A stretch of DNA of 64,000 nt from a virus, in the IMG/VR virus record IMGVR_UViG_3300031823_000001, positions 97,741-161,740 of that record. One strand, given 5' to 3'. The position numbers and the translations under genes were made by a program. The notes beneath the pieces were generated by a model. The model ran no database searches and was not told the origin of the DNA. It was given only the letters and a program-made list of their open reading frames with translations. How positions within the stretch are numbered: the stretch's first letter is position 1; each line of letters opens with the position of its first letter. Positions 33,353 to 54,470 of the stretch are shown here, in pieces.

Positions 33353-34102
33353 TATGCTCTAAGGAGGTTGCCCAGGCGCCGCGCTAACGGTCCTGGGCTG
33401 GAAGACCTGTGTGGAGGTCCCCCCATGGCTTCAGTGTACGTCTTTTCTGGTACCCCGAGCTGCACGGTGTGCGGCGTTCCGGTGCGAAGCGACAACAAGG
33501 TCGGTATCTGCGACCGGACTCCGGCATGTCGCCGTGTCCGTGCCCAGCTCGCTTATACCCCTGCTAAATGGGAGTTCTCCTGTTCTGTCTGCGACAGGGG
33601 TATCAGGGCCGACAATCACTCAGGCGTCTGCCAGAGGTCACCTGAGTGCCGGAGAGAACATGACCGTCGCCGCCATATCGCGAACCGGGCGAAGCGGCTT
33701 GCGGTCCAAAAGCAGTACCGGGACCGTCCCGGACGCGCATGCCGTTACTGGGCGTCCGGGTGCACTGAGCATGCCGTAATCGGAGGTCACGCCTGCCGGG
33801 AGCATGCCCGTCAAGAGGGCCGAGCCTTGCATGCAGCACACCGGACCAACCTCGTTAACCGGCTTGCGGAAGCACAGCACTGGATTTGCACGTGGGAGAT
33901 CTGCTGGCAGCCGATTCTTCCGGACCACCAGGTCGAGATCGATCACATCATCCCGATCTCCTCGGGCATCGTCATCCAGGATGAATGGAATCTCCAGGTC
34001 CTTCACCAGGGGTGCAACCGAGCGAAGGGGAGCAAGATCACTGGCCAGAGCGTGAGATTGGCATGGAAACACGGAATAGAGCTGATCTCAGTTGGCGATT
34101 AG
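33296..34102 (+). CDS. HNH homing-type endonuclease inserted at the terminase start
   Basis: 268 residues if translation begins at the old terminase ATG; ATG 33425 (GGAGG upstream) gives the likely native 225-residue form, MASVYVFSG. Two related zinc-ribbon units (CTVCGVPVRSDNKVGICDRT and CSVCDRGIRADNHSGVCQRS) precede a third Cys/His group and the HNH core: DHQVEIDHIIPISSG, then WNLQVLHQGCNRAKGSK. Free-standing HNH endonucleases cut alleles lacking them and spread by repair. Codon use is less GC-rich than in surrounding genes, which supports recent transfer. Confidence 0.8.
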   Translation: MAVGRWDAPDTTAAGPLDVYALRRLPRRRANGPGLEDLCGGPPMASVYVFSGTPSCTVCGVPVRSDNKVGICDRTPACRRVRAQLAYTPAKWEFSCSVCDRGIRADNHSGVCQRSPECRREHDRRRHIANRAKRLAVQKQYRDRPGRACRYWASGCTEHAVIGGHACREHARQEGRALHAAHRTNLVNRLAEAQHWICTWEICWQPILPDHQVEIDHIIPISSGIVIQDEWNLQVLHQGCNRAKGSKITGQSVRLAWKHGIELISVGD

Positions 34103-36622: not shown

Positions 36623-36662
36623 CAGCCTCCCGTGGAAGACATGGGAGGCTGTCGCTTTCTGT
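36623..36662 (+). terminator. Intrinsic terminator before the giant-gene operon
   Basis: A 9-bp stem (36623-36631 with 36643-36651) is followed by TCGCTTTCT. It isolates the giant-gene promoter from packaging transcripts. Confidence 0.7.
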
Positions 36663-36672
36663 CCGTCCTCCC

Positions 36673-36700
36673 TTACCCGAATACGGGCTTTCTTGATAAG
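36673..36700 (+). promoter_or_regulatory. Phage promoter/19-bp element, site 7 (leaderless, giant genes)
   Basis: -35 TTACCC, 16-base spacer, -10 GATAAG; contains ATACGGGCTTTCTTGATAA. The predicted start (about 36707) is three bases from the ATG at 36710. It would drive both giant genes. Confidence 0.7.
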
Positions 36701-36709
36701 GTGGACGGC

Positions 36710-39700
36710 ATGGCGTCGATTCAGGGCGACGGTCACGGCACTGACTGGGACCGTGTCTTCCGGGAGAAGGACCCCCGCCTCACCGAGGTGCACCGGGGCC
36801 TGCGCATCTGGCCGGACTACGACGCCTACCAGCACGCCCACGACAAGTCCGTCCCGGTCGCCGAGCGCGCCCACGCGCTGCTCGGCCACATCGGCGACCT
36901 CATGAGGCGCGAGCATCGTGGCATCGGCATGAGCTGGAGCGACAGCCCGACCCTAGCCCGGCAGGCCGCCGGGGAGGGCGGCTGGAGCCATCACGGGCTG
37001 ACCGGGCGCCCGGACCCTGAGAGCCCGGACTACGATGACCGGCCCTTCCACATGCCGGTGGTGCTGAACGCGGCGTGGCCTGAGAAGGAGCACATCGAGA
37101 CGCGCCCGCACGTCCTTGACCGCCACGGCGTGTTCCCCTATGACGACGCGGAGATGTCGCAGGGCGAGGTCCCCGTCCGGAATGGTGCCCCGGTGCGGGT
37201 CACCGGGATCTCCTGGGCGAAGGACGGTACCGAGCGCGACACCTGGAACCACCACGTCTTCGACCACCCGGTGCACTACAACGGCACGGAATTCGAGCCC
37301 CACGGTCCTGGCCACGAGCACACCGCCGCGCTACTGGAGCACTTCGAGGCAGCGGAGGGTGACGGCCGCCGCTACTACCACGCCAGCGACGAGGACTTCG
37401 AGCCCGGCGACACCGTGTCCGGCGGCCACCGGCTCGACGACCTGTACCTGGCCGACACCATCCCGGGCGCGCACAAGTACTACACCTCGGGCAACGTCTA
37501 CGAGATCGAGCCCCATGACGATCCGCAGCCGTCGATGAAGGGCGAGTACACGGTGCCGTCGGGCACCGTAAAGCGCAGGGTGCCGTCAGAGGAGGTCAGC
37601 AAGGCCGTCCGGGACGCCTACAACGCACCCGACCAGAAGGCCGCGCGGGACCGCACCAACCGCCGCCAGCGCGAGCACTCCTGGCGCGTCAAGAACGACC
37701 GCTGGTACCACGGCTACGGCGGCCAGGACAAGCCCGGCTGGGACGAGTACCAGTCCCACTGGTTCCCTGAGGGCATCGAGAACGCGACGGACGAGCAGTC
37801 GGAGGCGTCCCGGCACGGCAGTCCCCTGCCGCCGGAGATCCACCGCTGGATTCACGGGACGGAGGCCGCCGTGCAGCCGATCGACCTCTACCACCACACC
37901 ACTCCGGAGAATGCCGCCGCGATCATGCGCGAGCGGAAGATGAAGTCGGCCGAGCGAGGGCCGGACGGCCGTCTCTCAGCGTTCTTCACCACCGACCCGT
38001 CTCCCTTGGAGAGCCAGGCGGGCAGGCGGGGGAGCGCCACGGTTCACGTCCGGGTGCCCGAGCACCTGACCTGGGTGGAAGACGAGTTCCCGTCGGGCGA
38101 GCAATGGCACGGGATTCCGCTGGCAGAGCTGCGGCCTGAGCACTTCGTGGACTCCGAGATCAGCCGGGAGGCATCCGTGCAGCATCATGGCATCAGCGGG
38201 GAGAGTGCCCCGGAGAGCGCGGACATCTTCGCCGAGCCGACCGGGATCAGCCCGGTGGGCTCCCACCACGCGGACCTGATGCGCCACCCGGAGAGGTCCG
38301 TCCGGGTGAACGGGCGCGGGGAGAGCGAATGGGTGCACCCGCACCTGACCGCCCCGGACCACGGCCCGTACTACGTCGCCCGCGACCCCGGGGATCCGGA
38401 CGGCAACGAGGGCACCCTGCATGTCCTGGACCGCAACGGCCACGCGACTCACCGGCCCTACAAGGGCGGTAGCTGGCAGCACGCCAATGCCTACCGGGAC
38501 TGGCACCGGCTGACCTACCGCCAGGACCCGGAGGGGGAGGGGACTGAGCGCGACGTCCCCTCGATCATGGAGGACCACCAGCGGCACCTGTCCGCGAACC
38601 CGCCGCAGTTCCCGCATTCCCGCACCGACCCCCGCGACACCGAGATCCTGAGGCGGCCGGACGCCCGGGTGGCGCGGCCGGAAGGGTACAGCCCGAGTGA
38701 CGAGTACCACGGCTCCTACGAGGTGGTGCGGCACCCGGACACCGGCCGGTTCCACGTCGTGGACAACCAGGGCCGTCACGCCGGCGCCGGCTATGACGGC
38801 GCGCCCACGCAGATCGGCGCGGAGCGGTCCCGCGACTATATCGAGAAGCGCCAGATGGGCAAGGAGCGCGCCCGGGGCATCGCCGACAAGCTCATGGGCG
38901 GCGGCATGGAGGCTCTCGACCCGGGCGGCACGGCGGAGTCCCGCGAGTCCGAGGCGAATATGGCTGCGGCCTCGGACATGATGGGCCGTTACGAGGGCGG
39001 CCGGGGCAAGGTCAAGTTCGACTCCGACGAGGAGGGCGGGCGTCCCTACTACGAGCGGGAGCACCACCTGCCGAACGGGCAGGCCTCCGGCTGGTACGCG
39101 AAGCACTACGGCGGCCCTTCCGCCGACGTCTACCACCGGGCGACTGGCGACCTCTCCTACGCCCTGCTGCGGTTCCCGGTGCACCCGGAGGACGAGGGCA
39201 GCATGACCCCGCGCCTGCACCCGGCCTTCCGCGACGAGCACCTGGCGGAGTCGCTGAAGAACTGGCACGACAACGAGGAGAGCCAGGAGCGGCAGTCCCT
39301 GGAGGCGGCCGACCCGAGGATCAGCCGCTGGAAGCAGCAGCGCCTCGGCTCGCAGCACGAGGTGGTCGCCCACTTCGAGGAGACGGCCGCCGCGCAGGAC
39401 CCGGACGAACGCCCCTTCGGCTACTACACCCTGCGCCACCGCACCGAGGACCTCGGCGAGCGCAAGCCCCGCCATTTCATCGAGGCCCACACCCCCGAAG
39501 GCAGCGTCGTCGGGCGGATGAACTGGTTCGGGACGACCGGCTGGGTGCACCACATCGACGTGGCAGGCGAGGAGGACGACGTCGGCAACGGGTTGTCCTC
39601 GATCGGCGACGGCCGCGACCACCAGGGACGCGGCCTGGCTACCGCCATGTGGGACTGGTCGCAGGAGATGCGGCCCAAGGCGAAGCACTCCAAGGACCAG

Positions 39701-42700
39701 TCCAATCAGGGCAAGGCGTGGGCGCGCGGGCTGAAGGACCGCGAGCGCCGCGACCCGCCGGAGGAGCCGCCGTCCTTTCAGGTGACCGCAGCAGCGGAGT
39801 ACGGCCCGAAGCCCGAGTTCCGGGCTGCGCCGGAGCACCTGTCTGATGACGAGAAGATGGAGCACTGGGAGGGGGAGCGCCGGAAGAAGCACGCCTGGGA
39901 GTCGCACATCCGCCGGGGCCTCGCCCTGGGCCACCTCGACTACGGCTGCGCCCGCGAGCTGGGCTACTGGGGCAACGGGGACGAGCACCCGGACGAGACG
40001 TGGAACCACGAGGGCGAGATCGTCTCCCGGCGCGGGTGGCAGCCGCTCCCGCAGCGCCTGTACCACGTCACTACCAACCTCCCGGCGGTCCGCGAGCACG
40101 GGCTGAAGTCCCGCCGCGAGCTGGGGCAGCACACCACCGGGGGACTGGGCCTCGGCGGCGGCCCGGACGACACCGTCTCCCTGACCTCGCATCACGGCAC
40201 CGCCCGGAACATCCTGCGGTCGATGCATGAGTACCACGACGTCCTCAACGGCAGGAAGACCCCGCAGGAGATGATCGACGAGGCCCGCACCGGGTCCTCG
40301 GCGGAGCGTCCCTTCCTGCACGACTGGATCGGCCTGTCCGGGCACCCGGTCCCGGAGGAAGACGAGCTGCCCCGGCCGATGCGGGCGGTAATGGAGGGCC
40401 ATGAGGTCTACACCAACCCGACGCTGCGCACCCGCGAGGACATGCACGAGCAGGAGGGTCCCGGCTGGGAGCCGGAGGACGAGGGGCGTGACTTCGCCGG
40501 GCACCACGTCCACAACGGGCCGTGGCGCCGCACCCCGACGCCCGAGCGCCGCCGCCAGCAGCTATCGGAGTTCTACAAGAACTTCTCCTGGGCCAGGTCG
40601 TGGGCGAAGGGGCCGGACAACCCGCTGTTCTCGGCCAACGACGCCGAGGGCTTCGCGCACCTCGACCCCCGGCACTTCGCGATCGTCCACGCGACCCCGC
40701 ATCCCGGCGCCCAGGGGTTCCCGCAGTCGTCGCTGCAAGAGTGGCGCACCGCGAGCGGTGACGCAGTGCACGTGCACCGGGCCGAGCAGCTTGAAGGCGG
40801 CCACCTGAAGGAGGCATCAGTGAGCCTTGCGTCGCGCTTCCAGCCAGGGCTTCGCAACCCGCACACAGGCGGGGACGAGTGGTTTCACGGCACCCAGTCC
40901 GACCCCGGGGACTTCGTGCACGGGTTCTCCCACGACGACACCCATGACCACGAAGACGAGGAGCTGCGCGAGCACCTGTCGCACTGGAACACCAAGCTCG
41001 GCTCTCACTTCGCGGCCGACCACGGGGTGGCGGAGCACTTCGCCCGTCAGGGGGCTTCGACGGACGACGACGAGGACGACTGGGGCGGTGACGACGGCCG
41101 CAGCCGCTACCAGGAGAAGGACCCGCAGTCGGTGATCCACGCCCGGCTGCACCTGCGCAACCCGAAGGTCTACGACTCTGAGTTCGACATGGACCACGAG
41201 GCGTACGAGCACGAGTACGGGCAGCGGAAGAACTACATCTCGAAGCACTTCGAGGACAGCTACGAGGACGAGGACCCGTCTCACGAGGATTACGACCCGG
41301 ATACCCCGGGCGAAGGCGAGGAGTGGCCGCTGGCCGCCCGGTACCGGCACGACGACAAGCAGCCGATCCCCCGTGAGCAGATGCAGCGCCGGACCCTGTT
41401 CTCCAACCCGGACATGCCGGAGATGCCGGAGCGTACCCGCTGGCTGGCTTCCCACCCGGACAAGGCGGGGATTGCCCGGCGCTTCAAGGAGCGGCTCCAG
41501 GCCCAGGGCCACGACGGCATCCTGTACGGCAATGAGTTCGAGACCAGCCACGCCACCGGGGACGGGGGTCACCACGACCTGTCGGCCATCATCTTCCACC
41601 CGCACCAGGCGGAGATCACCCAGCACCACCAGACCGGGGCTCCCTGCCTGTCGCGCGAGGAGGGCGAGAGCCAGCGGGGCCGGATGCCGCAGCCCGGCCA
41701 GGAGGAGCTGCCCGGTGTCGAGGAGCACGCCGACCACTTCCCGAACGGGTTCCTGCGCGGCGCCGCCCTCCTCGCTCACTTCGGGGAGCCGAGGACGGCT
41801 ATGCCGCTGCACATGCAGCAGAAGCTCTTCCACATGCAGCCCGACCCGACATTGCACGAGCCTGAGTCCGGCCGCCATAACCCGTCCGACCCGGAGGCGC
41901 ACCTGCGCTGGCGGCACGAGCACGACGAGGGCTACGAGCCGGACACCTGCGAGCAGTGCGGCGAGGACCAGCGGCGCTGGCGCGAGCACGCCGAGAAGCA
42001 CGACGACTGGCAGCGCGGGCAGGACTGGTACACCGACTGGAGCGAAGAGCACCCGGGCGATGCCATCCACCGGGGTATCGGCGTCGCCCTTCCTCCGGAG
42101 GTGCACGCCGTGGTGCACGACGAGTCGCGGCCCCTTGCCGAGCGCGCCCGCGCCCTGGCGCATCACGTGGTGAGCAGGGGCGGCCTGGGAAACTTCTGGT
42201 CGTCCGACCCGGACGTGTCGAAGACCTACGCCGAGTCGTCCGCGAAGCGGTACAGCAGCCAGGGCGAGAAGACCCCGGTCATGCTGCATGCGCACACCCC
42301 GGGCACAGAGCACATCGAGACCGACCCGGAGACGCTCCAGCACTGGGGCGTTTACTCCTACCACCTGGCCGGGAACCGGGAGGTGCCGCTTCAGCACCAG
42401 GCCCCGGTGCACCTGAAGGGCATCTCCTGGGCGCCTCCGGGGCACGAGGCGCAGGGACCTCACCCCTCCGATCCCAAGTGGCACAACCCGGGACCGCACC
42501 GCTTCGACCAGGACCGGGCCTGGACGCACCACGAGTTCGGTGGCGACGGGATAAGCGCGAATGCCTCCCTGGCGGCGGTTGTAGCCCACTTCGATGAGGG
42601 ACCGCAGGTTCCGTCGTTCACCTGGAAGTACCAGACCTACGGGCCGGAAGGCGGCTACACCGACAAGGAGCAGGAAGTCGCCGGGCCGTTCTACCACGGC

Positions 42701-44164
42701 AGTCGCTCGAAGGGACTGCGCCCCGGCAGCAGCGTGAAGAAGGGCATGTCGGCCAACCCGTGGGGCGACGAGGGCAACGAGGCGGCAGAGCCGGACCCCT
42801 GGGATGAGTTCAGCCGGCCCTCTCGCTACATGCGGGCTCCCGAGGAGCACGAGGCATTCGGCCATCTCAGAGATGACCACAGGATCAACCCGGAGCTTCT
42901 GATGCGGCTGCCCGATGAGACTCTCCGTAGAACTCACTACGAGATACACAGCGGCGAGCTGTACGGGGCGCCAGGCAGCGGTCATTACCATGATGAGCGG
43001 CCCGGTGAAGACAACTGGGACGGCGCCCTCCGGGGGCTTCATCCTGAGGCATCCCTCCCGGCCGTCGTCGCCCACTTCGAGGATGGCGACCAGTACGTCG
43101 CCCCGCCGCAGCCTGGCGACGAGACGTGGAGCCACCTCCAGGAGGCGCACGGAGCGCGCCCTTCGGCGGGCAGCGACAAGGCGCCGGGCGCCGACTTCAC
43201 GAGTGCCCTGCACCGCAGGTTCCACGACGGCAAGAAGGCGTTCCCGGGGTCGGTCCCCCACCATCACGGGGCTCAGGCCGAGGCCCCGGCTGCCGGGCAG
43301 TCTGCCAGGGACTCCATCTCCCGGATGTTCACCCCGATCCCGCCTGAGGAGCTGGAGGCGCAGCGGCGTGCAAGCGAGCCGAAGCCCGAGCGGCTCGACG
43401 ACCGGGAGTACTCGATCCGTGACGTGAGCAGGCACTACGACTGGGAGGGGTTCGACCCCCACGAGATCGAGCACCTGGTGCACCGTCCCGAGCACGCGAC
43501 TTTCACCAGGGAGGACGTGCCGGTCCACACCCTCCGGCACGCGGACGAGCACGGGAACCTGGTGGCGCCGCCTTCCTACCACGACATCGCCAGCCAGGAC
43601 GACGACGAGCGGGAGCGCCTGGAGGGACTGGAGCGCGGCTACGAAAACGGCGAGCCGGTGCCGCCGATCGTGACGGTCCGCGACGGCGAGCACCACATCA
43701 TCGCCGACGGCTCGCACCGGGCGGCCGTCCACGTCAGGCGCGGCAGCACCCACATCCCGGCGTTCGTCACCCAGCGGACCATCTACCCGGGAGCGCACGA
43801 GGCGTCGCGCCGCGAGGACGAGATCGTCCTGGCGCCCGTCTGCGACACCGTCCCGGCGATCGACGCCTCCCCGCTGGCGCAGGTGATCGCCGCCGCCGGT
43901 CTCCTGGGGTCGTGGGCGCCGCAGACGCGGGAGGACGCGCTGGACGGGATCAGCGCGTTCACGGCTGAGGTGCTCCCCGCTCTCCGCCAGGGGCTGCTAC
44001 GGCTGGCGGCGGTCATCGAGGAGATGCCGGTGCACCCGGACGTCGCCGAGCTGCTCTACGGCATAGCGCGGGCGTCCCGGGTCGCGGCGCAGGACGGCGC
44101 GGAGATGCTGCGGAGGCTGCCCCCGGAAGCACCATGGCAGGAGAGTGGTCCCCCAAATCGCTGA
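36710..44164 (+). CDS. Giant polyvalent protein 1 (2,484 aa) with multiple ADP-ribosyltransferase-like modules
   Basis: Start ATG 36710 fits a leaderless transcript. Modules by eye: 26-190, R-S-E type ART (VHRGLRIW, MSWSDSP, GEVPVRNGAPVRVTGISW); about 220-290, Arr-like (YYHASDEDFEPGD, VYEIEPHDD); about 394-484, Tpt1/DarT-like (LYHHTTPENAAAIM); 500-900, unrecognised; about 904-1015, GNAT (DHQGRGLATAMW); about 1117-1365, LYHVTTNLPAVREHGL ART-like; about 1390-1645, ART (WFHGTQS, AQGHDGILYGNEFE, SAIIFHPHQAEI); 1746-1911, CEQCGED then a second R-S-E ART (IHRGIGVALPPEVH, NFWSSDP, REVPLQHQAPVHLKGISW); about 1994-2107, degenerate Arr-like (FYHGSRSKGLRPG); about 2229-2365, ParB-like (IIADGSHRAAVHV); C-terminal 100, helical. 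This layout matches phage 'polyvalent proteins' injected with DNA. Activities are inferred. Confidence 0.75.
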   Translation: MASIQGDGHGTDWDRVFREKDPRLTEVHRGLRIWPDYDAYQHAHDKSVPVAERAHALLGHIGDLMRREHRGIGMSWSDSPTLARQAAGEGGWSHHGLTGRPDPESPDYDDRPFHMPVVLNAAWPEKEHIETRPHVLDRHGVFPYDDAEMSQGEVPVRNGAPVRVTGISWAKDGTERDTWNHHVFDHPVHYNGTEFEPHGPGHEHTAALLEHFEAAEGDGRRYYHASDEDFEPGDTVSGGHRLDDLYLADTIPGAHKYYTSGNVYEIEPHDDPQPSMKGEYTVPSGTVKRRVPSEEVSKAVRDAYNAPDQKAARDRTNRRQREHSWRVKNDRWYHGYGGQDKPGWDEYQSHWFPEGIENATDEQSEASRHGSPLPPEIHRWIHGTEAAVQPIDLYHHTTPENAAAIMRERKMKSAERGPDGRLSAFFTTDPSPLESQAGRRGSATVHVRVPEHLTWVEDEFPSGEQWHGIPLAELRPEHFVDSEISREASVQHHGISGESAPESADIFAEPTGISPVGSHHADLMRHPERSVRVNGRGESEWVHPHLTAPDHGPYYVARDPGDPDGNEGTLHVLDRNGHATHRPYKGGSWQHANAYRDWHRLTYRQDPEGEGTERDVPSIMEDHQRHLSANPPQFPHSRTDPRDTEILRRPDARVARPEGYSPSDEYHGSYEVVRHPDTGRFHVVDNQGRHAGAGYDGAPTQIGAERSRDYIEKRQMGKERARGIADKLMGGGMEALDPGGTAESRESEANMAAASDMMGRYEGGRGKVKFDSDEEGGRPYYEREHHLPNGQASGWYAKHYGGPSADVYHRATGDLSYALLRFPVHPEDEGSMTPRLHPAFRDEHLAESLKNWHDNEESQERQSLEAADPRISRWKQQRLGSQHEVVAHFEETAAAQDPDERPFGYYTLRHRTEDLGERKPRHFIEAHTPEGSVVGRMNWFGTTGWVHHIDVAGEEDDVGNGLSSIGDGRDHQGRGLATAMWDWSQEMRPKAKHSKDQSNQGKAWARGLKDRERRDPPEEPPSFQVTAAAEYGPKPEFRAAPEHLSDDEKMEHWEGERRKKHAWESHIRRGLALGHLDYGCARELGYWGNGDEHPDETWNHEGEIVSRRGWQPLPQRLYHVTTNLPAVREHGLKSRRELGQHTTGGLGLGGGPDDTVSLTSHHGTARNILRSMHEYHDVLNGRKTPQEMIDEARTGSSAERPFLHDWIGLSGHPVPEEDELPRPMRAVMEGHEVYTNPTLRTREDMHEQEGPGWEPEDEGRDFAGHHVHNGPWRRTPTPERRRQQLSEFYKNFSWARSWAKGPDNPLFSANDAEGFAHLDPRHFAIVHATPHPGAQGFPQSSLQEWRTASGDAVHVHRAEQLEGGHLKEASVSLASRFQPGLRNPHTGGDEWFHGTQSDPGDFVHGFSHDDTHDHEDEELREHLSHWNTKLGSHFAADHGVAEHFARQGASTDDDEDDWGGDDGRSRYQEKDPQSVIHARLHLRNPKVYDSEFDMDHEAYEHEYGQRKNYISKHFEDSYEDEDPSHEDYDPDTPGEGEEWPLAARYRHDDKQPIPREQMQRRTLFSNPDMPEMPERTRWLASHPDKAGIARRFKERLQAQGHDGILYGNEFETSHATGDGGHHDLSAIIFHPHQAEITQHHQTGAPCLSREEGESQRGRMPQPGQEELPGVEEHADHFPNGFLRGAALLAHFGEPRTAMPLHMQQKLFHMQPDPTLHEPESGRHNPSDPEAHLRWRHEHDEGYEPDTCEQCGEDQRRWREHAEKHDDWQRGQDWYTDWSEEHPGDAIHRGIGVALPPEVHAVVHDESRPLAERARALAHHVVSRGGLGNFWSSDPDVSKTYAESSAKRYSSQGEKTPVMLHAHTPGTEHIETDPETLQHWGVYSYHLAGNREVPLQHQAPVHLKGISWAPPGHEAQGPHPSDPKWHNPGPHRFDQDRAWTHHEFGGDGISANASLAAVVAHFDEGPQVPSFTWKYQTYGPEGGYTDKEQEVAGPFYHGSRSKGLRPGSSVKKGMSANPWGDEGNEAAEPDPWDEFSRPSRYMRAPEEHEAFGHLRDDHRINPELLMRLPDETLRRTHYEIHSGELYGAPGSGHYHDERPGEDNWDGALRGLHPEASLPAVVAHFEDGDQYVAPPQPGDETWSHLQEAHGARPSAGSDKAPGADFTSALHRRFHDGKKAFPGSVPHHHGAQAEAPAAGQSARDSISRMFTPIPPEELEAQRRASEPKPERLDDREYSIRDVSRHYDWEGFDPHEIEHLVHRPEHATFTREDVPVHTLRHADEHGNLVAPPSYHDIASQDDDERERLEGLERGYENGEPVPPIVTVRDGEHHIIADGSHRAAVHVRRGSTHIPAFVTQRTIYPGAHEASRREDEIVLAPVCDTVPAIDASPLAQVIAAAGLLGSWAPQTREDALDGISAFTAEVLPALRQGLLRLAAVIEEMPVHPDVAELLYGIARASRVAAQDGAEMLRRLPPEAPWQESGPPNR

Positions 44165-47100
44165 CGCCGCCCCGCCCGATCAGGGCGGAGGCGGCCGACG
44201 ACCGCATCTGGTACCACGGAACGCCAGATGAGCGGACCTGGGAGCACGGTGCGCCCTACGGCATCCACGTGGGTACCGAGGAGGCAGCCAGGCAGGCTCT
44301 GCACGCCCGGATCGGCAAGCCTGCCGAGGGCGAGTGGGACGGCACCCGGGAGTACGGCAAGACGCTCCTGAACAGGGACTACAGCATCTATAGCCTGGAC
44401 GGCACCAAGACAACCCAGCGCAATCCGCCGTCGTACCCGACTAAGGGGCCTGGCTACAGTGACGGGACCACCGGCCCTATGGATGCCCGGCCGAGCATCT
44501 TCCCGGTCCGGATCAAGGGGCCGATGACTAATCACCCCGACGCCCCGGTGACCGACGATTACGCGAACGGCCGGATGCGCGGGCAGATCACCCGGGGTAA
44601 TGCGCGGCGCGGTTACTACTACACGAACCACGGTGAGGACGAGGGATCTATCTCAGCGGCCGTCCCGTCGGCCGCCCACCTGGAACGGATTCATCCGCCG
44701 AAGACTGCGGCTCACGGCGGTGAGCGGTCCTACGTTCTCTACCACGGCGCTCACCATGACGACGTGCGTAGCATCCTGGCCTCCGGCCTGCGGGGGGACC
44801 CTGACCAGCCGACGGTGACGACGAGCCGCGAGGGCGCCGAGCTGTACGGCCGTAAGCGCGACTGGACGGCGCCGAAGGTGCTGGAGATTCACGTGCCCCG
44901 CTCCCAGGTGCACCGCTACCTGGGCGAACCGCAGGAGGGCCTGCCGGTGGAAGGCACGGTGCACGCGCTGCGGGAGACGCTGCCGCCCGCGTTCATCCGC
45001 GCGGTGCACGAGGCGAGCCTGAGACGGGGAGCTGCCTGGAGTCCCCAAGTTGGGATCTTCGGCCCGACCACCGGCCTGGACCCGCTGCTGTTCGATGAGG
45101 GCGGCATGCTGCGCGGCCAGGTCCGCCACGAGATCATGACGCGGCTCGACCAGTGCCTCCGGGTGAACTCCGGGCTGGCCGGGAGCGACTGGCAGGAGTG
45201 GCTGCACGTCTGGCTGACGGGCGGGTCGGCCTCGGAGTGGGCCGGGTCACGGCCGAATGAGAAGGCGCAGGACCTGGACGTCATCGTGGCGATCGACCTG
45301 CCCGAGGCCCAGGGATACGGCGCCTTCGATGGGATGAACGGCGGGGAGGCCGCCTCCGCGCTGAACGCCGCCCTCTGGAAGCACTTCAACACCGACGGGT
45401 GGCAGCCCGGGTTCGGCGGACGCTGGAATCTCACCGCGTTCTGCAACCAGCGGGCGAAGGACGGCATCGGGGCGATCAAGCCGTACGCCGCCTACGACGT
45501 CACGGGCATGCGGTGGGCGGTCTCCCCTCCCCACCTGCCGGAGCACACCGTCGCCGACTTCGACCCGGCGGTGATCGCCCACGCCCGCGCGGTGGCGGCC
45601 GAGGCCCGCGCCATCCTGCGGATGCCCGAGCCGCTGCGCACCCGGGAGGCCCGCGACCTGTGGGAGCACGTCCACCAGCACCGCTGCACGGCGTTCTCGA
45701 AGGAGGGCACCGGCTGGGAAGATCCCGGCAACGTGGACGAGAAGATGCTGGCATACGCCCCGCACGACTTGCTGGGGAAGATTAAGGAGCTGGCGCTGAA
45801 CAGTCAGCAGAAGACGGCTGCCTGGTCGCCCGAGTGGCCGGAGGACGAGCGGTCATGGCGCGGGGAGCGTCGTCTGCTGCCCCTTACGGACCTGATCGCC
45901 AACGATAAAAACATGCGCGAGGTGCTGTCCTCGGGACGCCGTTCTGAGACCGTCGGTGCCATCCACGTCTGGCCGCGCGATGACATGCCCGGCTTTGAGA
46001 TCGGTGATGGCCACCACCGGGTCGCCGATGCCATCCGCAGGGGTGAGACCCATATCGACTCAGAGGTCGAGCCGTGGCCCGACGAAGAGCAGTACGATCC
46101 CCCGTTTTACGACTTCAGCCAGCACATGCGCCGGGAGTCAGCCCTGGCGAAGACGGCCGCCGCGCAGAACCCGCCGTGCCGGTACTGCGGGGAGCCCCTC
46201 GACGAGGAGGACGTCCGCGACGGCCACAGCGCGCACGAGGAGTGCTCCGACATGCGCTGGTGCGAGCCGCACCAGGAGTACCACGATGACCCCCAGGAGG
46301 CCGAGGGCCACAACGGCACGTACACCGACTGGGGCTGCTACCTGCCGTTCGAGGGCGGCATCCACCGGGGCCTTACCGTCCGGCTGCCGGAAGAGGCTCA
46401 CCGCCTGGTGCACGACGAGACGCGTCCGGCCGCCGAGCGAGCCCGCGTGCTGAAGAGCCACCTCGACGATGGCGGCCACTACGGCGTCCACTGGACCGAT
46501 CACCTGCCTGTCGCCCAGGCGTGGGGCTCGGACAACGGGGCCGTCTTCGGCGTCCCCGACCCGGACGACTCCTCGCGCACCCACGTGGTGCTGCACGCCG
46601 CGAGCCCGGGTGTGGAGCACATCGAGGATGACCCGGAGAAGCTGTCCGGCCGCAACCTGTGGGGCTTCGGCCATGAGAACTCCGAGCGCGAGGTCCCGCT
46701 GAAGGAGGGCGCGCCCGTCCACGTCACCGGCATCTCGTGGAAGCGCGGCGGCGAGAGCGAGTGGAACCGGCACGACTTCGGGGAGACCGCGCCCAAGACC
46801 GCCTCGTGGGACCACAGCGGATCGGACCACAGCGGCGTCTACCTGCGGTTCGGCGACTGGCCGCACGACGAGCGGTCCTTCAGCCCGGCCGGCGGCTACC
46901 ACGAGGAAGGCGTCAGCGCCTACGACCTGGACCGGCACGGCGACCCGTCGATCGACCACGGCCTCAACCGGGGCCATCAGCACGACGACGAGTGCGACGT
47001 GGACGAGAACGGCACCTGCCAGTTCCAGGACCCGTGGGGGGAGCCGGACAACGACCCGCAGGAGGAGATGCGAGGCCGCGTCGCCCGTGCCGAGCGCTCC

Positions 47101-50100
47101 CGCTACTACGGCAGCGACAAGCCCTCCGAGGTAGGTCACCTCGTCCGGGGAGAGATGACCGGCGTCGGCTACGACGGCGAGCCGTTGCTGAAGAACGTGA
47201 GGCGGGTCGGCGACTGGATCGACCACCGGCACCTGTTCCTCGACCAGGCGAAGCCGCACCGCCTTGCCCGCGACCCCTCTGACGAGGACTACGAGGAGCC
47301 AGAGGAGAAGCCGCCGTACGGCTACCGCAACCGCACTGCTGCCCTGGAGGCCGGAACCCAGCTGTATCACGGAAGCCTGCACCAGTACGCGCCGGGCACA
47401 GTACTCACTCCCGAAGGGAAGGACGCCGAGGGCTCCCGCTGGTCGGGTGACTACGTCTACGCCGCCACGAGCCCGGAGGCGGCCCGGTACTTCGGCTCCA
47501 TGCACGACACCACCCCCATGAGCGACGCGGACGTGCACGTGCACCGGGTCGAGCCCGTTGGTGACGTAGAGCCGGACGAGTTCCCCGAGGGCGCCGAGGA
47601 CGAGAGGTTCGCTCGCGGGAACTACCGGGCGAAGGCGCTGCGCGTACTCGACAGCCGCCGCGTGCCGGGACACTGGGCGAAGACGGGCGCCTACGAGGGC
47701 GAGCGGATGCTCCGCAACACCCACGAGCTTGGCTGGAGCAACGAAGAGTGGGCTGCCGCGCGCCGCGAGCCGTGGCACGCGGCGGCTAAGCTCGCCCAGC
47801 GGCAAGTGCGCCTGGACCACCCGAAGACGACCATGGATTTCCCGCGCGGCGAGGAGGGCGACCGGATGGTCGGCCATATCCTCCGCCATACCGGGTACCA
47901 GGGGGACGTCAGCGGGGCGTTCGTCTCCCGGCATCCTGATCCCGCGAGGAGGACCTCCAATCCCGCGTGGCTGGACGGGTACCCCGGGGTAACCCTGCAC
48001 CCGGAACGATGGGACTACGGCACTGTCGCGCATGAGGCCGCCCACCACGCAGTGATGGAGGCCCACGGTGTCGGCCCGAACCAGTACGAGTCCGACGAGG
48101 CCAGTCACGGCCCCGAGTGGGCCGGGCACTACGCGCAGGGGCTGAACAGGATCTCGAAGAGCGCCGGGGACGACTTCCTGGCCCACCACCAGTTCTACCG
48201 GGACCTGATCGGCGAGGGCCTCCAGTGGAAGCGCCCGTCGGACATGGACGCGGCCGACGAGCGGTGGCGGAACTCGGGGGAGTCTTACCCGCGCGGTCCC
48301 CGACCGCAGCAGAGTCACTACGGCACGGGCATCGAGCGCGAGGCGGCAGCGGCAGAAGGACCTGCCGGGATCCGCATGGTCGAGCCTGAGGAGTACCGGA
48401 AGTACGTCTTCCCTGACTACCCGGCGAAGACCCTCCCGGCTCTCGCCAGGCACCTGAGGAAGAACAGCCCGGGGTACTACGACAAGCTCCGCGCTGACGT
48501 GCAGGCTAACGGGGTCCGCACGCCGCTCCTGGTGCGCTTCCCCGGCGTTCCCGGGCACCCGGTGAAGAAGCCGCAGGTGATGGATGGCCATCACCGGGGA
48601 GCTGTCGCCAGCGAGCTGGGCCTCCCGGTGCCAGTTGGCGACTATGACAACGAAGAGCACTATCGGTCGGCTATGCAGGCGGGGCAGGCGTGGTTCCGCG
48701 AGAACCACGACCTGAAGGCCGGCATCGTGCGCGAGGCGGCAGCCGACCCGGCTTACCTGCACGGAGGGCCGAACCGGGTGGAGCCCGGCGGTCTCATCCA
48801 CCAGGACGCCATGCCGGAGAGCTACGGTCGGCTAAGCCATAACTTCTTCACTACCAGCCGGGACGTGGCCGAGGAAGCCGCTGACATGCGCAACGGCCTC
48901 GGCCACGGCTGGGTGCATACCGTTGAGCCGACCGGGCCGTTCGAGGTTGACCCGGGCGAGCCGGATTCCTGGAAGTCGGAGGCTCCCCTGCGGGTGCTGT
49001 CGGTAGAGCCGGGCCGGCTGAATGGCAAGGTCCCGCACCCGCCGATCGTGCGCGAGGCGGCGGCTGAGCACGGCCCCGTCTACACCTACGTGCCGGGCTC
49101 CTCCCCGGGGTCGCACGCGATCGTCGCGCACCCGGCCGGGGCCGAGCAGACGAAGGAGAACCGCATCGGCAGGCTGAGCTGGACCGAGGAACCCGAGGGA
49201 CCGCGCGTCGTAAACGTCCACGTGGACGAGGGGTGCCGGCGGCACGGCATCGCGACCGAGATGCTGCGGCGCGCCGAGGAGATCACCCCCGGGATCAGGC
49301 ACTACAACCCTAGTCCCGACGCCGTGAAGTGGATCGAGGGGATGGGCAAGGAGGCGGCAGCCGGAGACTACCGCCAGCCGCACCAGGGGCCGGACGCTGA
49401 GGACGGGGAGGCACTGCACGAGCTGGGGACGAAGGGTTTTTTCCCGCCTGACGTGCACGAGCGTCCGCAGGATTACGGGGCCGACACCCAGACGGCGGGC
49501 AAGATCCGTAAGGCACGCGGCAACCCGGACGAGCGGATCACCATGTACCGGGCGATGCCGAGCCCGCATCACAAGATCAACACAGGCGACTGGGTGACCT
49601 TGTCCGAGGACTATGCCCGTGAGCACGCCGAAGAGTCTCACCCGGACGATAACTACGCCGTCCTCGGTAAGGTCACCCGCGCCAGGCACCTGCGCAATGA
49701 TGGCAACGACCTGAACGAGTGGACCTACCACGGGCCGACCCAGCACTTCCCGAAACTTGTTGACCGGGGCGGCAAGAACGGCGGCTGGAAGAACTCAGCC
49801 GAGCTGAGCAAGGCCCAGTGGAAGGACGTGCCCCCGGAGGATGAGATGCCGTCCCGCGAGGCGGCCAGCTCTGACGGCGTCCCCCAGCGGCCGAAGCGGA
49901 CCCCCGGCAGCGCCATGGTGTACCTGGACGTCCCGCACGGCACCGTCGAGCCGTACGAGGGGATGGAGACCGGCCACCACGTCGCCCTGGCGTACCTGCC
50001 CCGCAAGATCGGCGACGAGGACTTCGCCCGGGTGGTGGACCGCGCCCGGGAGGCGGCGGCCAGGCACGCGCCGATGAAGGCCACCATCTCGGGCGGCGGG

Positions 50101-52551
50101 GTCTTCCCGCCCGGCACCCCGCCCGACCGGCGGAGGGCGGCGGTCGTCCCGGTGCACGCCCCCGGCATCCACGAGCTGCACCGCGAGTTCTCCGAGTTCG
50201 ACCGGGCGCACTACGAGGCGTACACCCCGCACGTCACCCGGGCGCAGCTCGGCGGCCACCAGGCCGACCCGCCGGCGCACCCGGAGGTGAGCTTCCCCGT
50301 CACCCACGTGCACGTGCGGCGGGGCGACGAGGTGCACTCCTTCCCGCTGACCGGGACGAGCCGCACAGAAGCCGCCCTTCTCGACCCGAAGTGGCGCGAG
50401 GTCCAGGTCATGAACGGCTGGACCTGGGACCCTACCCCGCGTCCCGTCGGGAAGGGATACGACACCCGGCCGGTCTCGGTGCGCGCTGACGACGCGGTGC
50501 GCGATTACCTGACGCACCGCAGCCAGCACGACAGCGAGACGGACGAGGAGTTCGCCGAGCGCAAGGCAGACATCGGGCGCTACGGCCCCTGGCACAAGCC
50601 GAAGGACAGGGACGTCCGGGTCCTGGAAAAGTACCGGGACCGGGCACTGAAGGGCGGCCCGATCCGGCGGGAGGGCGGCAGGAACGGGAGCATCCCGCAG
50701 GGAACTGAGTTCAGGCACGAGGTACTCGAACCGCCGGACGACTTTCACCAGATCACTGCCGAGCACCCGGAGCACGGCAGGATCGGCCGCATCACCTGGG
50801 AAGGGGCGTCAAGCGGCATCTTCCCGTCTGAGGTGCACGTGGCAGAGGTGCATCCCGACTTCCGCCGCCGGGGGATCGCCACCGAGTTGTTCCGCCGCGC
50901 CTCGGAGATCACCCCTGGCTTGCATCATGCGCCGGAGGAGGCGCAGGGTGACGACGCAAGGGCCTGGATCGCCCGTGAGGCGGCTGCCCGGACGGTTTGC
51001 CCGTACTGCGGCACCTACGAGGACGCCCACCCGCAGTTCGAGGGCCTCTACCACGCGACAAGCCCCGCGCACCGGAACAGCATCAGGGACTCGGGGCTGC
51101 GCACCGAGTTCGACCAGGGCGAGGACATGACCGAGCCCGGGATCTACATGAGCCCGCACTCTAACGATGACGCCCACCAGGACGTCTGGCACGTTGATAT
51201 CAGAGGACTGCGCCTCCACCCGGACGACCCGGGGAACATGGAAGAGTTCAAGGACGTCGGCGGGTCCTACTTCTCGAAGGAGGACATCCCCCCGGAGAGG
51301 CTGCACCTGCACCGGCCGGGCACGGGGAACAAGTGGATCGGCTATCCCCCGAAGACAGCGGCGGCCGGCCCGCAGTTCTTCCATGGGACCGACTCGAAGC
51401 TGAGCGAAGGCGACCTGATCGTTCCCGGTCGCCCGAAGGTGAACGCAGGCAGCGACCCCAGGCACGTCTACTTCACCGAGAAGTACGAGCACGCCGAGGG
51501 CGCGGCGAGGGGAGCCACTGACCGCCGTGCCACCAGCTACGACCGCGAGAACGGCAGGTGGGTGCATGACGCCCCGGGGGCGCACTACGTGTACGAGGTG
51601 GAGCCGACCGGGGAGTGGGGACAGGACGAGCAGCTCCCGTGGACGCCCTACAGCCACCAGTCCGCTCACCCGCTCCGGGTTGTGCGTGACGTCACCAGGC
51701 GTGACGGGGACATGCACCGCGAGGCGGTCAGCGGCTACGACGGGCTGACCGGGCGCTCCGCGATGATCTACCTCGATCTCCCGCCGGGCACCGTGCGGCT
51801 GGTGCCCGGCGGGGTCGATGATCACCACGTCACCCTGGTGTACCTGGGCAAGAACGTCAGCGACGAGGCGTTCGGGGAGGCCTGCCGCCGCACCAGGGCA
51901 GCCGCCGCGAAGCTCGCGCCGATGGACGGGGTGCTGCGCGGCATCGACATCTTCCCGCCGTCTAAGTCCAGCGACGGCAAGGTGGTCGCGTTCGTGCCCG
52001 CCTACATCGGCAGCGTCGGGCTGCTGCGCCGCGAGCTGGATGACCTGTCGGCCTCCGAGCACACCGACTGGCGCCCGCACGTCACCCTCGCGTACCTCGA
52101 AGAGGGCGACTCGCTGCCCGCACCGCACCCGGCGGTGCCGCTGCGCTTTGACCGCATCCACGTGAAGCGCGGGGACGACGTACGGAGCTTCCCGCTGGGC
52201 GGGATGCAGCGCCAGGCAGCGGCTGAGCTGCCTGCTTACTATCACGGCACCAGGTACGAGCTAACCCCGGGGCAGGTGCTGACTGGCGGCGCGAAGCCCG
52301 CGAACAACCCGGGTGTCGGCAGGTACGAGCACGTCTACATGACGCGGTCGCCGATGGGGGCTCATGCGGCGGGGAGCCTCGCCTACGATGAGCTGGGATA
52401 CCAGCGCGGGCAGCCTAACGTCTACGCCGTGGAGCCCCTCGACCCGGTAGAGCGCGACCCGTTTACGAACGGAGCTGTGCGCAGTAAGCGCGCCCGGGTG
52501 ATACGTAAGGTCAACCCGTTCACTGAGCCATACGATGGTGACGATGACTGA
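44134..52551 (+). CDS. Giant polyvalent protein 2 (2,805 aa): ART, Arr-like, GNAT, 2H, ParB-like, NTase and peptidase modules
   Basis: ATG overlaps protein 1 by 31 bases. Modules by eye: 26-190 ART (WYHGTPD); 202-290 ART (LYHGAHHDDVRSILASGL); 305-550 nucleotidyltransferase (LTGGSASEW, DLDVIVAID); 570-648 ParB-like (GDGHHRVADAI); 683-870 zinc knuckle plus R-S-E ART (IHRGLTV, VHWTDH, REVPLKEGAPVHVTGISW); 890-1053 unknown; 1077-1180, 1541-1633, 2416-2525 and 2702-2805 Arr-like (FFHGTDSKLSEGD, VYEVEPTGEW, HPLRVV); 1219-1370 zinc metallopeptidase (VAHEAAHHAV, SHGPEW); 1412-1510 ParB-like (MDGHHRGAVA); 1648-1730 and 2195-2283 GNAT (RRHGIATEM, RRRGIATEL); 1804-1875 ART (MYRAMP, DWVTLS, NEWTY); 1925-2085 and 2543-2695 2H phosphoesterases (paired H-V-A/T-L and H-V-T); 2306-2400 ART (LYHATSP). 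Effector cargo is inferred. Confidence 0.78.
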   Translation: MAGEWSPKSLTPPRPIRAEAADDRIWYHGTPDERTWEHGAPYGIHVGTEEAARQALHARIGKPAEGEWDGTREYGKTLLNRDYSIYSLDGTKTTQRNPPSYPTKGPGYSDGTTGPMDARPSIFPVRIKGPMTNHPDAPVTDDYANGRMRGQITRGNARRGYYYTNHGEDEGSISAAVPSAAHLERIHPPKTAAHGGERSYVLYHGAHHDDVRSILASGLRGDPDQPTVTTSREGAELYGRKRDWTAPKVLEIHVPRSQVHRYLGEPQEGLPVEGTVHALRETLPPAFIRAVHEASLRRGAAWSPQVGIFGPTTGLDPLLFDEGGMLRGQVRHEIMTRLDQCLRVNSGLAGSDWQEWLHVWLTGGSASEWAGSRPNEKAQDLDVIVAIDLPEAQGYGAFDGMNGGEAASALNAALWKHFNTDGWQPGFGGRWNLTAFCNQRAKDGIGAIKPYAAYDVTGMRWAVSPPHLPEHTVADFDPAVIAHARAVAAEARAILRMPEPLRTREARDLWEHVHQHRCTAFSKEGTGWEDPGNVDEKMLAYAPHDLLGKIKELALNSQQKTAAWSPEWPEDERSWRGERRLLPLTDLIANDKNMREVLSSGRRSETVGAIHVWPRDDMPGFEIGDGHHRVADAIRRGETHIDSEVEPWPDEEQYDPPFYDFSQHMRRESALAKTAAAQNPPCRYCGEPLDEEDVRDGHSAHEECSDMRWCEPHQEYHDDPQEAEGHNGTYTDWGCYLPFEGGIHRGLTVRLPEEAHRLVHDETRPAAERARVLKSHLDDGGHYGVHWTDHLPVAQAWGSDNGAVFGVPDPDDSSRTHVVLHAASPGVEHIEDDPEKLSGRNLWGFGHENSEREVPLKEGAPVHVTGISWKRGGESEWNRHDFGETAPKTASWDHSGSDHSGVYLRFGDWPHDERSFSPAGGYHEEGVSAYDLDRHGDPSIDHGLNRGHQHDDECDVDENGTCQFQDPWGEPDNDPQEEMRGRVARAERSRYYGSDKPSEVGHLVRGEMTGVGYDGEPLLKNVRRVGDWIDHRHLFLDQAKPHRLARDPSDEDYEEPEEKPPYGYRNRTAALEAGTQLYHGSLHQYAPGTVLTPEGKDAEGSRWSGDYVYAATSPEAARYFGSMHDTTPMSDADVHVHRVEPVGDVEPDEFPEGAEDERFARGNYRAKALRVLDSRRVPGHWAKTGAYEGERMLRNTHELGWSNEEWAAARREPWHAAAKLAQRQVRLDHPKTTMDFPRGEEGDRMVGHILRHTGYQGDVSGAFVSRHPDPARRTSNPAWLDGYPGVTLHPERWDYGTVAHEAAHHAVMEAHGVGPNQYESDEASHGPEWAGHYAQGLNRISKSAGDDFLAHHQFYRDLIGEGLQWKRPSDMDAADERWRNSGESYPRGPRPQQSHYGTGIEREAAAAEGPAGIRMVEPEEYRKYVFPDYPAKTLPALARHLRKNSPGYYDKLRADVQANGVRTPLLVRFPGVPGHPVKKPQVMDGHHRGAVASELGLPVPVGDYDNEEHYRSAMQAGQAWFRENHDLKAGIVREAAADPAYLHGGPNRVEPGGLIHQDAMPESYGRLSHNFFTTSRDVAEEAADMRNGLGHGWVHTVEPTGPFEVDPGEPDSWKSEAPLRVLSVEPGRLNGKVPHPPIVREAAAEHGPVYTYVPGSSPGSHAIVAHPAGAEQTKENRIGRLSWTEEPEGPRVVNVHVDEGCRRHGIATEMLRRAEEITPGIRHYNPSPDAVKWIEGMGKEAAAGDYRQPHQGPDAEDGEALHELGTKGFFPPDVHERPQDYGADTQTAGKIRKARGNPDERITMYRAMPSPHHKINTGDWVTLSEDYAREHAEESHPDDNYAVLGKVTRARHLRNDGNDLNEWTYHGPTQHFPKLVDRGGKNGGWKNSAELSKAQWKDVPPEDEMPSREAASSDGVPQRPKRTPGSAMVYLDVPHGTVEPYEGMETGHHVALAYLPRKIGDEDFARVVDRAREAAARHAPMKATISGGGVFPPGTPPDRRRAAVVPVHAPGIHELHREFSEFDRAHYEAYTPHVTRAQLGGHQADPPAHPEVSFPVTHVHVRRGDEVHSFPLTGTSRTEAALLDPKWREVQVMNGWTWDPTPRPVGKGYDTRPVSVRADDAVRDYLTHRSQHDSETDEEFAERKADIGRYGPWHKPKDRDVRVLEKYRDRALKGGPIRREGGRNGSIPQGTEFRHEVLEPPDDFHQITAEHPEHGRIGRITWEGASSGIFPSEVHVAEVHPDFRRRGIATELFRRASEITPGLHHAPEEAQGDDARAWIAREAAARTVCPYCGTYEDAHPQFEGLYHATSPAHRNSIRDSGLRTEFDQGEDMTEPGIYMSPHSNDDAHQDVWHVDIRGLRLHPDDPGNMEEFKDVGGSYFSKEDIPPERLHLHRPGTGNKWIGYPPKTAAAGPQFFHGTDSKLSEGDLIVPGRPKVNAGSDPRHVYFTEKYEHAEGAARGATDRRATSYDRENGRWVHDAPGAHYVYEVEPTGEWGQDEQLPWTPYSHQSAHPLRVVRDVTRRDGDMHREAVSGYDGLTGRSAMIYLDLPPGTVRLVPGGVDDHHVTLVYLGKNVSDEAFGEACRRTRAAAAKLAPMDGVLRGIDIFPPSKSSDGKVVAFVPAYIGSVGLLRRELDDLSASEHTDWRPHVTLAYLEEGDSLPAPHPAVPLRFDRIHVKRGDDVRSFPLGGMQRQAAAELPAYYHGTRYELTPGQVLTGGAKPANNPGVGRYEHVYMTRSPMGAHAAGSLAYDELGYQRGQPNVYAVEPLDPVERDPFTNGAVRSKRARVIRKVNPFTEPYDGDDD

Positions 52552-53741: not shown

Positions 53742-53820
53742 TATCCTGGCTTTACGTCAGGCGCTTCCGCAAGAAAGCGCTTGTTCCTTGCAACGCGGGC
53801 CCGGACCGATGGGCCTGCGC

Positions 53821-53863
53821 GCAGACCGGGCGACCCGCACTGGCTCTGGGTCGCCCGGTCTGC
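53821..53863 (+). terminator. 16-bp perfect hairpin before the uracil-DNA glycosylase gene
   Basis: Arms 53821-53836 and 53848-53863 are exact complements, followed by CGTTTCC. It sits 20 bases before the start codon at 53883 and next to its ribosome site. It may terminate upstream transcripts or control translation. Confidence 0.6.
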
Positions 53864-53882
53864 CGTTTCCGGAGGAGGACTG

Positions 53883-54470
53883 GTGGAGCAGACGGACCGC
53901 GAGACGGCGATGACTGCCTTGTACGAGGACTACGCCAGGGCGCCGGTCCTCGCGAGACTGGCCGGAGGGCGGACGCTGGTGCGCGGCCACGGGATGCTCA
54001 GCGCCCCTGTCGCGGTCGTCGGCGAGGCACCGGGCGAGCAGGAGGACCGCCGGGGCAGGCCGTTCGTCGGGCCGGCCGGGCTCTTGCTGAAGGACTTGCT
54101 CGGCAAGGCCGGGATTCCGTGGGAGTACTGCTACGTGACCAACGTGCTGCCGTGGCGCCCCCCGGCCAACCGCACCCCGTACCCGTTTGAGGTTCAGGCG
54201 TCCGAGGCGCGCCTGGCAGCCGAGGTCGCCCTGGTTGACCCGGTGGTGGTCGTCGCGGCCGGGGAGGTCGCCTGGCGCGGCCTTACCCGGGGCAGCCTGG
54301 GGAGGTTCGCCGGCGCGCGGTTCCAGTGGCACGAGCTGGACGGCCGCCGCCTCCTCGCGGTCCCGCACCCGAGCTTCATCCTGCACCTGAAGGAAGCTGA
54401 GGTCCCTGAGTGGAAGAACGCCACGGTCGAGGCGCTGCGGCTGGCGCTGCCGCAGAAGGCCAGCGCGTAG
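53883..54470 (+). CDS. Uracil-DNA glycosylase, family 4/5-like
   Basis: 195 residues, GTG after GGAGGAGGAC. VVGEAPGEQEDRRGRPFVGP is the catalytic water-activating and minor-groove region of the family 4 type, YCYVTNVLPWRPPANRTP follows, and VPHPSFILHL holds the H-P-S leucine-loop motif. The N-terminal and internal cysteines that bind 4Fe-4S in family 4 are absent, so this is a cluster-free member, as in some phages. It removes uracil from DNA, protecting the genome against deamination. Confidence 0.8.
   Translation: MEQTDRETAMTALYEDYARAPVLARLAGGRTLVRGHGMLSAPVAVVGEAPGEQEDRRGRPFVGPAGLLLKDLLGKAGIPWEYCYVTNVLPWRPPANRTPYPFEVQASEARLAAEVALVDPVVVVAAGEVAWRGLTRGSLGRFAGARFQWHELDGRRLLAVPHPSFILHLKEAEVPEWKNATVEALRLALPQKASA

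Follow-up and report, generated by a model that had tools for sequence, protein, structure and literature searches.

Two adjacent giant proteins of a probable actinophage are polyvalent module arrays whose joint peptide recurs in head-assembly proteins

Directly 3' of a terminase gene, two adjacent giant open reading frames, A and B, raise the question of what such chains are made of and how a virus could use them. The analyzed window is the final 64 kb of a 161,740-bp IMG/VR virus record. Both ORFs display a coding-like composition (GC3 of 0.91 for A and 0.89 for B) and have conserved relatives; antisense to the giant genes run large ORFs of 845-993 aa, which were treated as high-GC artefacts. 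The terminase shares ~30-34% identity with its counterparts in Myrnavirus, Bixzunavirus, Rhodococcus phage E3 and Gordonia phage Stormageddon, and the best explanation is that A and B belong to a large actinophage, a distant relative of Bixzunavirus and Myrnavirus. For ORF A, position 36710 is a start candidate with an AAGG-type site upstream. The segment 36632-36710, 5' of this likely ATG, encodes NTGFLDKVDGM and resembles the matching stretch in relatives; it represents either a longer N-terminus of ORF A or a conserved leader that includes the ribosome-binding site. The two ORFs were cut into 31 modules, 12 in A and 19 in B (Table 1).

Table 1. ORFs, modules and joint peptides of the giant-protein locus, in window positions
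Feature	Position	Strand	Details
Terminase large subunit	34092..36215	+	directly 5' of giant ORFs
ORF A	36632..44164	+	polyvalent effector protein of 12 modules, the last a helical domain; 2510 aa, or 2484 aa if started at ATG 36710
ORF B	44134..52551	+	polyvalent effector protein of 19 modules; 2805 aa
A1: R-S-E ART	36710..37345	+	R29, S77, E153 of A, numbered from MASIQG
A2: short Arr-like ART	37346..37636	+	H224, Y246, D270; 94-96% to Arr group
A3: plausible KptA/PARP-like ART (LYHHTTPENAAAI)	37637..38182	+	10.9%, in register
A4: module common to A and G007A	38183..38860	+	homology
A5: module common to A and G007A	38861..39382	+	homology
A6: GNAT acetyltransferase	39383..39793	+	homologous to B11, B15
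A7: plausible ART (LYHVTT)	39794..40840	+	39% to Arr; homologues in L009, L058
A8: ART-PolyVal type (WFHGT..LGSHF..GHDGILYGN)	40841..41782	+	PF18760 match
A9: R-S-E ART	41783..42592	+	R1788, S1831, E1891; AF2 model
A10: Arr ART remnant	42593..43078	+	FYHGS retained; Y and VEP core gone
A11: ParB-like module	43079..43810	+	joined by B9 profile
A12: helical C-terminal domain	43811..44161	+	ends most A-type proteins
B1: module WYHGTPDERTWE	44134..44709	+	conserved in G001, G005, L058
B2: KptA/Tpt1-like ART	44710..45030	+	91.5%, E 8.7e-7
B3: nucleotidyltransferase-like (GGSASEW..DLDV)	45031..45819	+	motif reading
B4: ParB-like module	45820..46161	+	profile homology
B5: R-S-E ART, Cys-rich N-terminus	46162..46803	+	R745, T788, E853
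B6: DUF6098-like	46804..47343	+	1.2e-3; R..S..E pattern
B7: Arr ART	47344..47688	+	H1079, Y1109, D1148
B8: zincin-like metallopeptidase module (HEAAHH..HGPEW)	47689..48351	+	profile homology, motif reading
B9: ParB-like module	48352..48744	+	profile homology
B10: Arr ART, Phe in place of Tyr	48745..49065	+	profile homology
B11: GNAT	49066..49362	+	
B12: YRAMP..GDWV..EW module	49363..49866	+	PHROG 2579
B13: 2H phosphoesterase	49867..50376	+	
B14: module, no family given	50377..50703	+	
B15: GNAT	50704..50988	+	
B16: plausible KptA/PARP-like ART (LYHATSPAHRNSI)	50989..51363	+	20.8%, in register
B17: Arr ART	51364..51726	+	H2417, Y2446, D2498
B18: 2H phosphoesterase	51727..52224	+	usual B-type C-terminus in relatives
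B19: Arr ART	52225..52548	+	H2704, Y2735, D2775; after RQAAA, beyond usual C-terminus
A1/A2 joint	37331..37345	+	(HTAA)LLEHF
A5/A6 joint	39362..39376	+	VVAHF(EETAAA)
A7/A8 joint	40808..40819	+	KEAS
A8/A9 joint	41768..41782	+	LLAHF
A9/A10 joint	42578..42592	+	VVAHF
A10/A11 joint	43064..43078	+	VVAHF
B1/B2 joint	44701..44712	+	KTAA
B3/B4 joint	45811..45822	+	KTAA
B4/B5 joint	46150..46161	+	KTAA
B5/B6 joint	46795..46806	+	KTAS
B6/B7 joint	47332..47343	+	RTAA
B8/B9 joint	48337..48348	+	REAA
B9/B10 joint	48730..48741	+	REAA
B10/B11 joint	49051..49062	+	REAA
B11/B12 joint	49348..49359	+	KEAA
B12/B13 joint	49855..49866	+	REAA
B15/B16 joint	50974..50985	+	REAA
B16/B17 joint	51352..51363	+	KTAA
B18/B19 joint	52210..52224	+	RQAAA

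The initial annotation had counted 16 units resembling ADP-ribosyltransferases (ARTs), seven in A and nine in B. Our own module cut yielded the same 16 candidates, ten of which are well supported as ARTs: three of the R-S-E type, five Arr units, one ART-PolyVal module and one KptA/Tpt1-like module. The remainder consists of three plausible ARTs (A3, A7 and B16), one Arr remnant (A10) and two modules with no detectable link to ARTs (B1 and B12); ARTs therefore do not fall below about half of the units. Two features had been missed. About half of all modules are not ARTs and comprise three GNATs, three ParB-like modules, two 2H phosphoesterases, a nucleotidyltransferase-like, a zincin-like, a DUF6098-like and a helical C-terminal module, and three more; and the modules are interchangeable cassettes with a recurrent joint peptide.

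The proposed Arr-like type was borne out for A2, B7, B10, B17 and B19 by Pfam and profile comparison. Pfam Arr-ms scores 8.9e-31 over the four stretches of B, the Arr family profile matches the solved ARR-2 and Arr chains in the PDB (2e-13 and 4.6e-11), and A2 joins the group by hhalign. All five modules match the catalytic domain of the rifampin ADP-ribosyltransferase Arr (2hw2, 9iba) and its H-Y-D set, one of them with F. Unlike Arr, they sit in arrays, and rifampin is unlikely to be the target of all of them. By profile comparison A7 reached 39% against Arr, and A10 was identified as the start of an Arr domain with its core replaced, the whole domain being present in relatives.

The R-S-E type was also recovered, as A1, A9 and B5 are mutually homologous and conserve R, W-S/T and E-x-P, with HR, W and E-x-P invariant. 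These units are tied to ARTs indirectly, through a profile link to A8 and through weak fold matches. A8 matches ART-PolyVal (PF18760, best 1.7e-13, with two family members matching) and is linked by profile comparison to both the R-S-E and the Arr groups. An AF2 run on A7-A9 was informative chiefly for A9, whose domain was modelled with a pLDDT of about 70-90. The four best PDB matches of this model were PltC, EcPltA (twice) and IcmQ, at weak E values of 0.45-1.5, none individually significant. All four are ART folds. AF2 was uninformative for B1-B7 (pLDDT 37) because homologues are few and mosaic, and the fold evidence consequently rests mainly on profiles. PDB sequence searches with the R-S-E, ART-PolyVal, B12 and A3 profiles returned nothing relevant.

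A Tpt1/DarT-like type was confirmed for B2 by hhalign against KptA. In the same test DarT, a true ART, scored only 21% and the Arr units B7, B17 and B19 scored 11-14%, while non-ART controls remained below 1%. B16 (21%) and A3 (11%) matched at low probability but in the correct register, and are plausible members only; no relatives of B16 were found in 299 genomes of one family. An apparent hhalign link between B2 and ParB was due to one ParB segment in the B2 alignment, since removed. The fourth proposed type, carrying a Y-R-A/N-E-W pattern, gained no such backing: in profile comparison B12 had no detectable link to ARTs of known families, and neither B1 nor B6 had one to an ART family. B12 matches PHROG 2579, which carries the label 'ParB C-terminal domain', and 150 mycobacteriophage records contain relatives of it. 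B6, with its R..S..E pattern, could be a diverged ART.

With positions assigned by our reading of the alignments, three-residue active-site sets are present in A1, A9, A2, B7, B17 and B19. In B5 the S is replaced by T, in B10 the Arr Tyr by F and in A8 the Y, at its assumed position, likewise by F; A10 has lost the set. Several units may be inactive, for example the A10 remnant and B10 with its Tyr-to-Phe change.

In both chains several unrelated enzymatic domains (ART, GNAT, 2H, nucleotidyltransferase-like, ParB-like and zincin-like) are combined, in a virus record and directly after the terminase. The earlier reading as polyvalent, ART-rich proteins was thus correct, and membership of A and B in this class is well supported. 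Polyvalent proteins have been described as giant ART/GNAT/NTase/ParB/MPTase chains of invasive elements (Iyer et al. 2017; PMC5512222, available part). One protein in that source, derived from a P. aeruginosa prophage, contains as many as 12 copies of the ART, so the density of ARTs is not unprecedented. ART-rich polyvalent proteins are already known; what appears to be new, judged from sequence, is the architecture of cassettes and joint peptide.

Modules of B meet at the peptide [KR][TE]A[AS], and those of A at [VL][LV]xHF, at times preceded by TAA. In B, [KR][ET]AA was observed 12 times versus 0.33 expected from shuffling; in A, [VL][LVA][AE]HF was observed six times versus 0.02, one of the six lying inside module A8. 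Because the motif had been used to draw module boundaries, joints were compared with the edges of BLAST homology blocks. Joints lay <=12 aa from an edge in 24/31 and 24/37 cases (random 10.8 and 11.4; 0/2000 randomizations each), and with the motif masked in 24/31 and 21/37 (random 10.0 and 10.8; p of 0 and 0.0005 of 2000). Codons differ at almost every joint; thus, the peptide is conserved there and not the DNA.

Relatives with a 73-82% identical terminase encode large proteins at the same place, in which module content and order differ, the modules being drawn from one pool and reshuffled. The open frames are long and of coding-like composition in every relative. This phage is the most ART-rich, with 13 by profile (A10 counted, A2 not) compared with 4 to 9 in close relatives. 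Conservation is seen at the ends: the helical A12 closes most A-type proteins, and a 2H domain closes those of the B type, past which this phage has one extra Arr cassette, B19, behind RQAAA. Scanning for related loci with whole protein B found no relative, because modules turn over; relatives were found instead via the terminase and the nucleotidyltransferase module. Nudix-like modules, read from their motif only, additionally occur in the relatives L058 and G007.

The module pool extends to the Streptomyces contigs L061 and L062, where it lies next to the terminase, and to gp88 of Bixzunavirus. These two contigs (NZ_SSBL01000019.1 and NZ_MULI01000008.1) are ~150 kb long, lie in Streptomyces assemblies and carry genes of this phage group, with a terminase in both and portal, protease and capsid genes seen in L061; they are either phage-plasmids or co-assembled phages. 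In a Streptomyces-associated phage, a B6-type module is likewise found immediately behind RREAS, but within another protein of the head region (L061; L070, G009:C16:121878-124229).

Cassette exchange is visible among near-identical, cultured Bixzunavirus phages. Bigswole gp88 (L048:3697-6078) has homologues (L109-L112) among Phlegm, ET08, Essence and Kashi_SSH1, and this family (Bigswole gp88, ET08 gp72 and Phlegm gp85) is annotated as hypothetical or ParB-like. The homologues contain a constant N-terminal block of an ART and a ParB-like module, with 2-19 differences in 900 nt, beyond which whole cassettes differ. Kashi_SSH1 and Essence carry an inserted GNAT with an RQAG copy on each side, the two copies using different codons; Bigswole has a different middle block with RTAG on either side; and in Essence the last ART is replaced where other homologues have RTAG. 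As with A and B, gp88 draws on the same pool (R-S-E ART, ParB-like, GNAT and A3-like ART) and shows similar joints and cassette swaps; unlike them, it is a single protein with few modules, whereas A and B have 12 to 19 each.

The joint peptide recurs in head-assembly proteins. In this phage (G000), whose head-gene set was partly picked after the motif had been seen, [KR]TA[AS] occurs in head-assembly proteins 9 times versus 0.64 expected (14-fold), in B 6 times versus 0.21, and in all remaining proteins 6 times versus 4.18 (~1.4-fold, not significant). In smaller tests, which pointed the same way, the counts in head proteins were 4 versus 0.51 for contig L061 (rest 6 versus 5.83) and 3 versus 0.61 for Mycobacterium phage Bigswole (p 0.015; rest 4 versus 4.35). 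The E variant of the joint is less specific, since [KR]EA[AS] is enriched in ordinary proteins too (12 versus 3.6); [KR]SA[AS] and [KR]VA[AS] showed no enrichment in the same test. The major capsid protein has no clear [KR]TA[AS] site, and some head-protein matches appear to lie inside folded domains (SWIM-like, esterase-like), as does one B match inside a 2H domain. Outside the window, G000:C1:33070-37107 encodes another modular head-region protein of 1345 aa, located between portal and protease; it has a SWIM-like zinc motif and matches lipase/esterase PHROGs.

The protease-scaffold precursor (G000:C1:39201-43310), a head maturation protease match by PHROG, carries the joint site behind the protease domain, ahead of the presumed scaffold region, and also near the C-terminus. 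Sites in such precursors lie at domain joints, and several are conserved among relatives. We know of no described cleavage specificity for this head protease family. Streptomyces homologues of the giant proteins begin with MTDISATDFFRRQAG or MTDLSATAFFRQTGG, and the peptide recurs before inner modules (5 versus 0.19 expected); [VL][LV]xHF resembles their N-terminal peptide SATxFFRQAG. In a literature search of incomplete coverage, we found neither the joint peptide described, nor its occurrence in a capsid protease precursor, nor an exchange of cassettes at it.

Because the joint peptide also occurs in capsid-building proteins, head packing, cutting and injection of A and B are probable. We propose, with a probability of roughly 55%, that A and B are head-packaged polyvalent effector polyproteins with repeated targeting and processing peptides, cut by the capsid protease. 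The two proteins would be made as part of the head and packaging gene set, and the joints (hydrophobic/aromatic [VL][LV]xHF or FF and/or [KRQ][TEQ]A[AGS]) would be signals, repeated along the chain, for both capsid targeting and processing. The capsid maturation protease, which has the same site in its own precursor, would cut the arrays into single, possibly active enzymes while the head assembles. These would leave the head together with the DNA, as a mixture directed at host targets and defences. As cassettes share the same peptide joint, they could be gained, lost and swapped without harm to packaging, allowing fast turnover. A wider version, an 'effector magazine' in which the capsid protease frees a dozen or more enzymes per head-packaged array and cassettes are exchanged plug-and-play across actinophages including Bixzunavirus, falls just short of even odds in our estimation. 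A broad, redundant attack delivered early, as first suggested, fits the post-terminase position, the enzyme mix and the packaging-like peptides, but its delivery is something we infer.

The same chains could remain intact as giant multidomain proteins, with the Ala-rich joints as mere linkers (helix caps or spacers) lacking any signal or cleavage role. Ala-rich linkers are common, and the enrichment of [KR]EA[AS] elsewhere agrees with this view. However, the second joint residue is specific, as the S and V variants are not enriched; the TA[AS] enrichment is limited to head proteins and the effectors; and the aromatic peptide stands at protein N-termini, where a linker would be superfluous. Intact chains are thus unlikely, although they deserve consideration. 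Processing by the embedded zincin-like metallopeptidase B8 rather than by the capsid protease would agree with the release by embedded peptidases proposed for polyvalent proteins generally and with P1 DdrB, a processed protein that has an MPTase at its end (PMC5512222), and B8-type modules are found in G000, G001, G003, G004, G007 and L058. Against it, joints are found in G005, L061, L062, L009 and Bixzunavirus gp88, where no B8-type module was detected, and the site is present in the protease-scaffold precursor itself; we consider this route distinctly improbable.

Two further accounts concern the shuffling. A recombination-prone locus gathering moron-like fragments, mostly decayed and non-functional, would explain the A10 remnant, the active-site changes in B10 and B5 and the very high turnover, yet the frames are long and coding-like in every relative and a plausible set of active-site residues survives in most units of the Arr and R-S-E types, leaving this account very little probability. 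That the joints are DNA recombination sites for cassette exchange, with the peptide incidental, is suggested by the swaps at joints; it is hard to credit when joint codons vary freely, both inside a single gene and from one flank of a swapped cassette to the other, and when no exact DNA repeat is common to the joints.

The proposed packaging and processing of A and B has parallels in other phages. In T4, a short targeting peptide, later removed by the protease gp21, brings Alt and the internal proteins into the prohead (PMC5694885). The proposed likeness comprises a head-packaged ART, a targeting propeptide, processing by the prohead protease and ejection with DNA (PMC5694885), with the packaging here again being what we infer. 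T4 has one effector per targeting peptide, whereas in A and B the peptide appears repeated inside the chain before many modules. Read against T4, the peptide that Streptomyces homologues share between N-terminus and interior is a putative targeting signal, and the enriched motif common to the protease-scaffold precursor is a putative cleavage site. In SPN3US, head proteins are processed at a three-residue motif (PMC10052503). The 250-kDa P1 DarB carries an N-terminal capsid-targeting sequence (PMC9024508, available part). DarB and DdrB resemble A and B in being very large and head-packaged, as A and B presumably are, with an N-terminal signal in DarB and processing of DdrB; they differ in their domains, and the available parts of both sources describe no repeated internal signal (PMC9024508, PMC5512222). 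Head packaging of phage ARTs has already been argued (PMC9503650). Compared with published polyvalent proteins, in the available part of PMC5512222, A and B are likewise phage-encoded giant mixed-domain chains, but differ in their adjacent loci, conserved ends and shuffled middles, and in a recurrent joint peptide common to head-assembly proteins.

If the polyprotein reading is right, it would provide a concrete mechanism by which one virion delivers a large enzyme cocktail, through a polyprotein produced with the head genes and cleaved by the capsid protease, with a logic comparable to that of viral polyproteins. It would also supply a sequence signature for finding injected effectors in many actinophages, including the unannotated Bixzunavirus gp88. 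Near-identical phages of M. smegmatis with naturally swapped cassettes would offer a test system, in which these cassettes could be compared directly against host defences.

Two other features of the window were recorded. A uracil-DNA glycosylase family gene (53781-54470; Pfam 6.6e-26) lies 3' of the giant genes. At ~14700-15075 on the plus strand, an A12-like helical stretch (SAPIEQVIEAINSAFG...) ends another frame and may form a stand-alone protein of ~115 aa.
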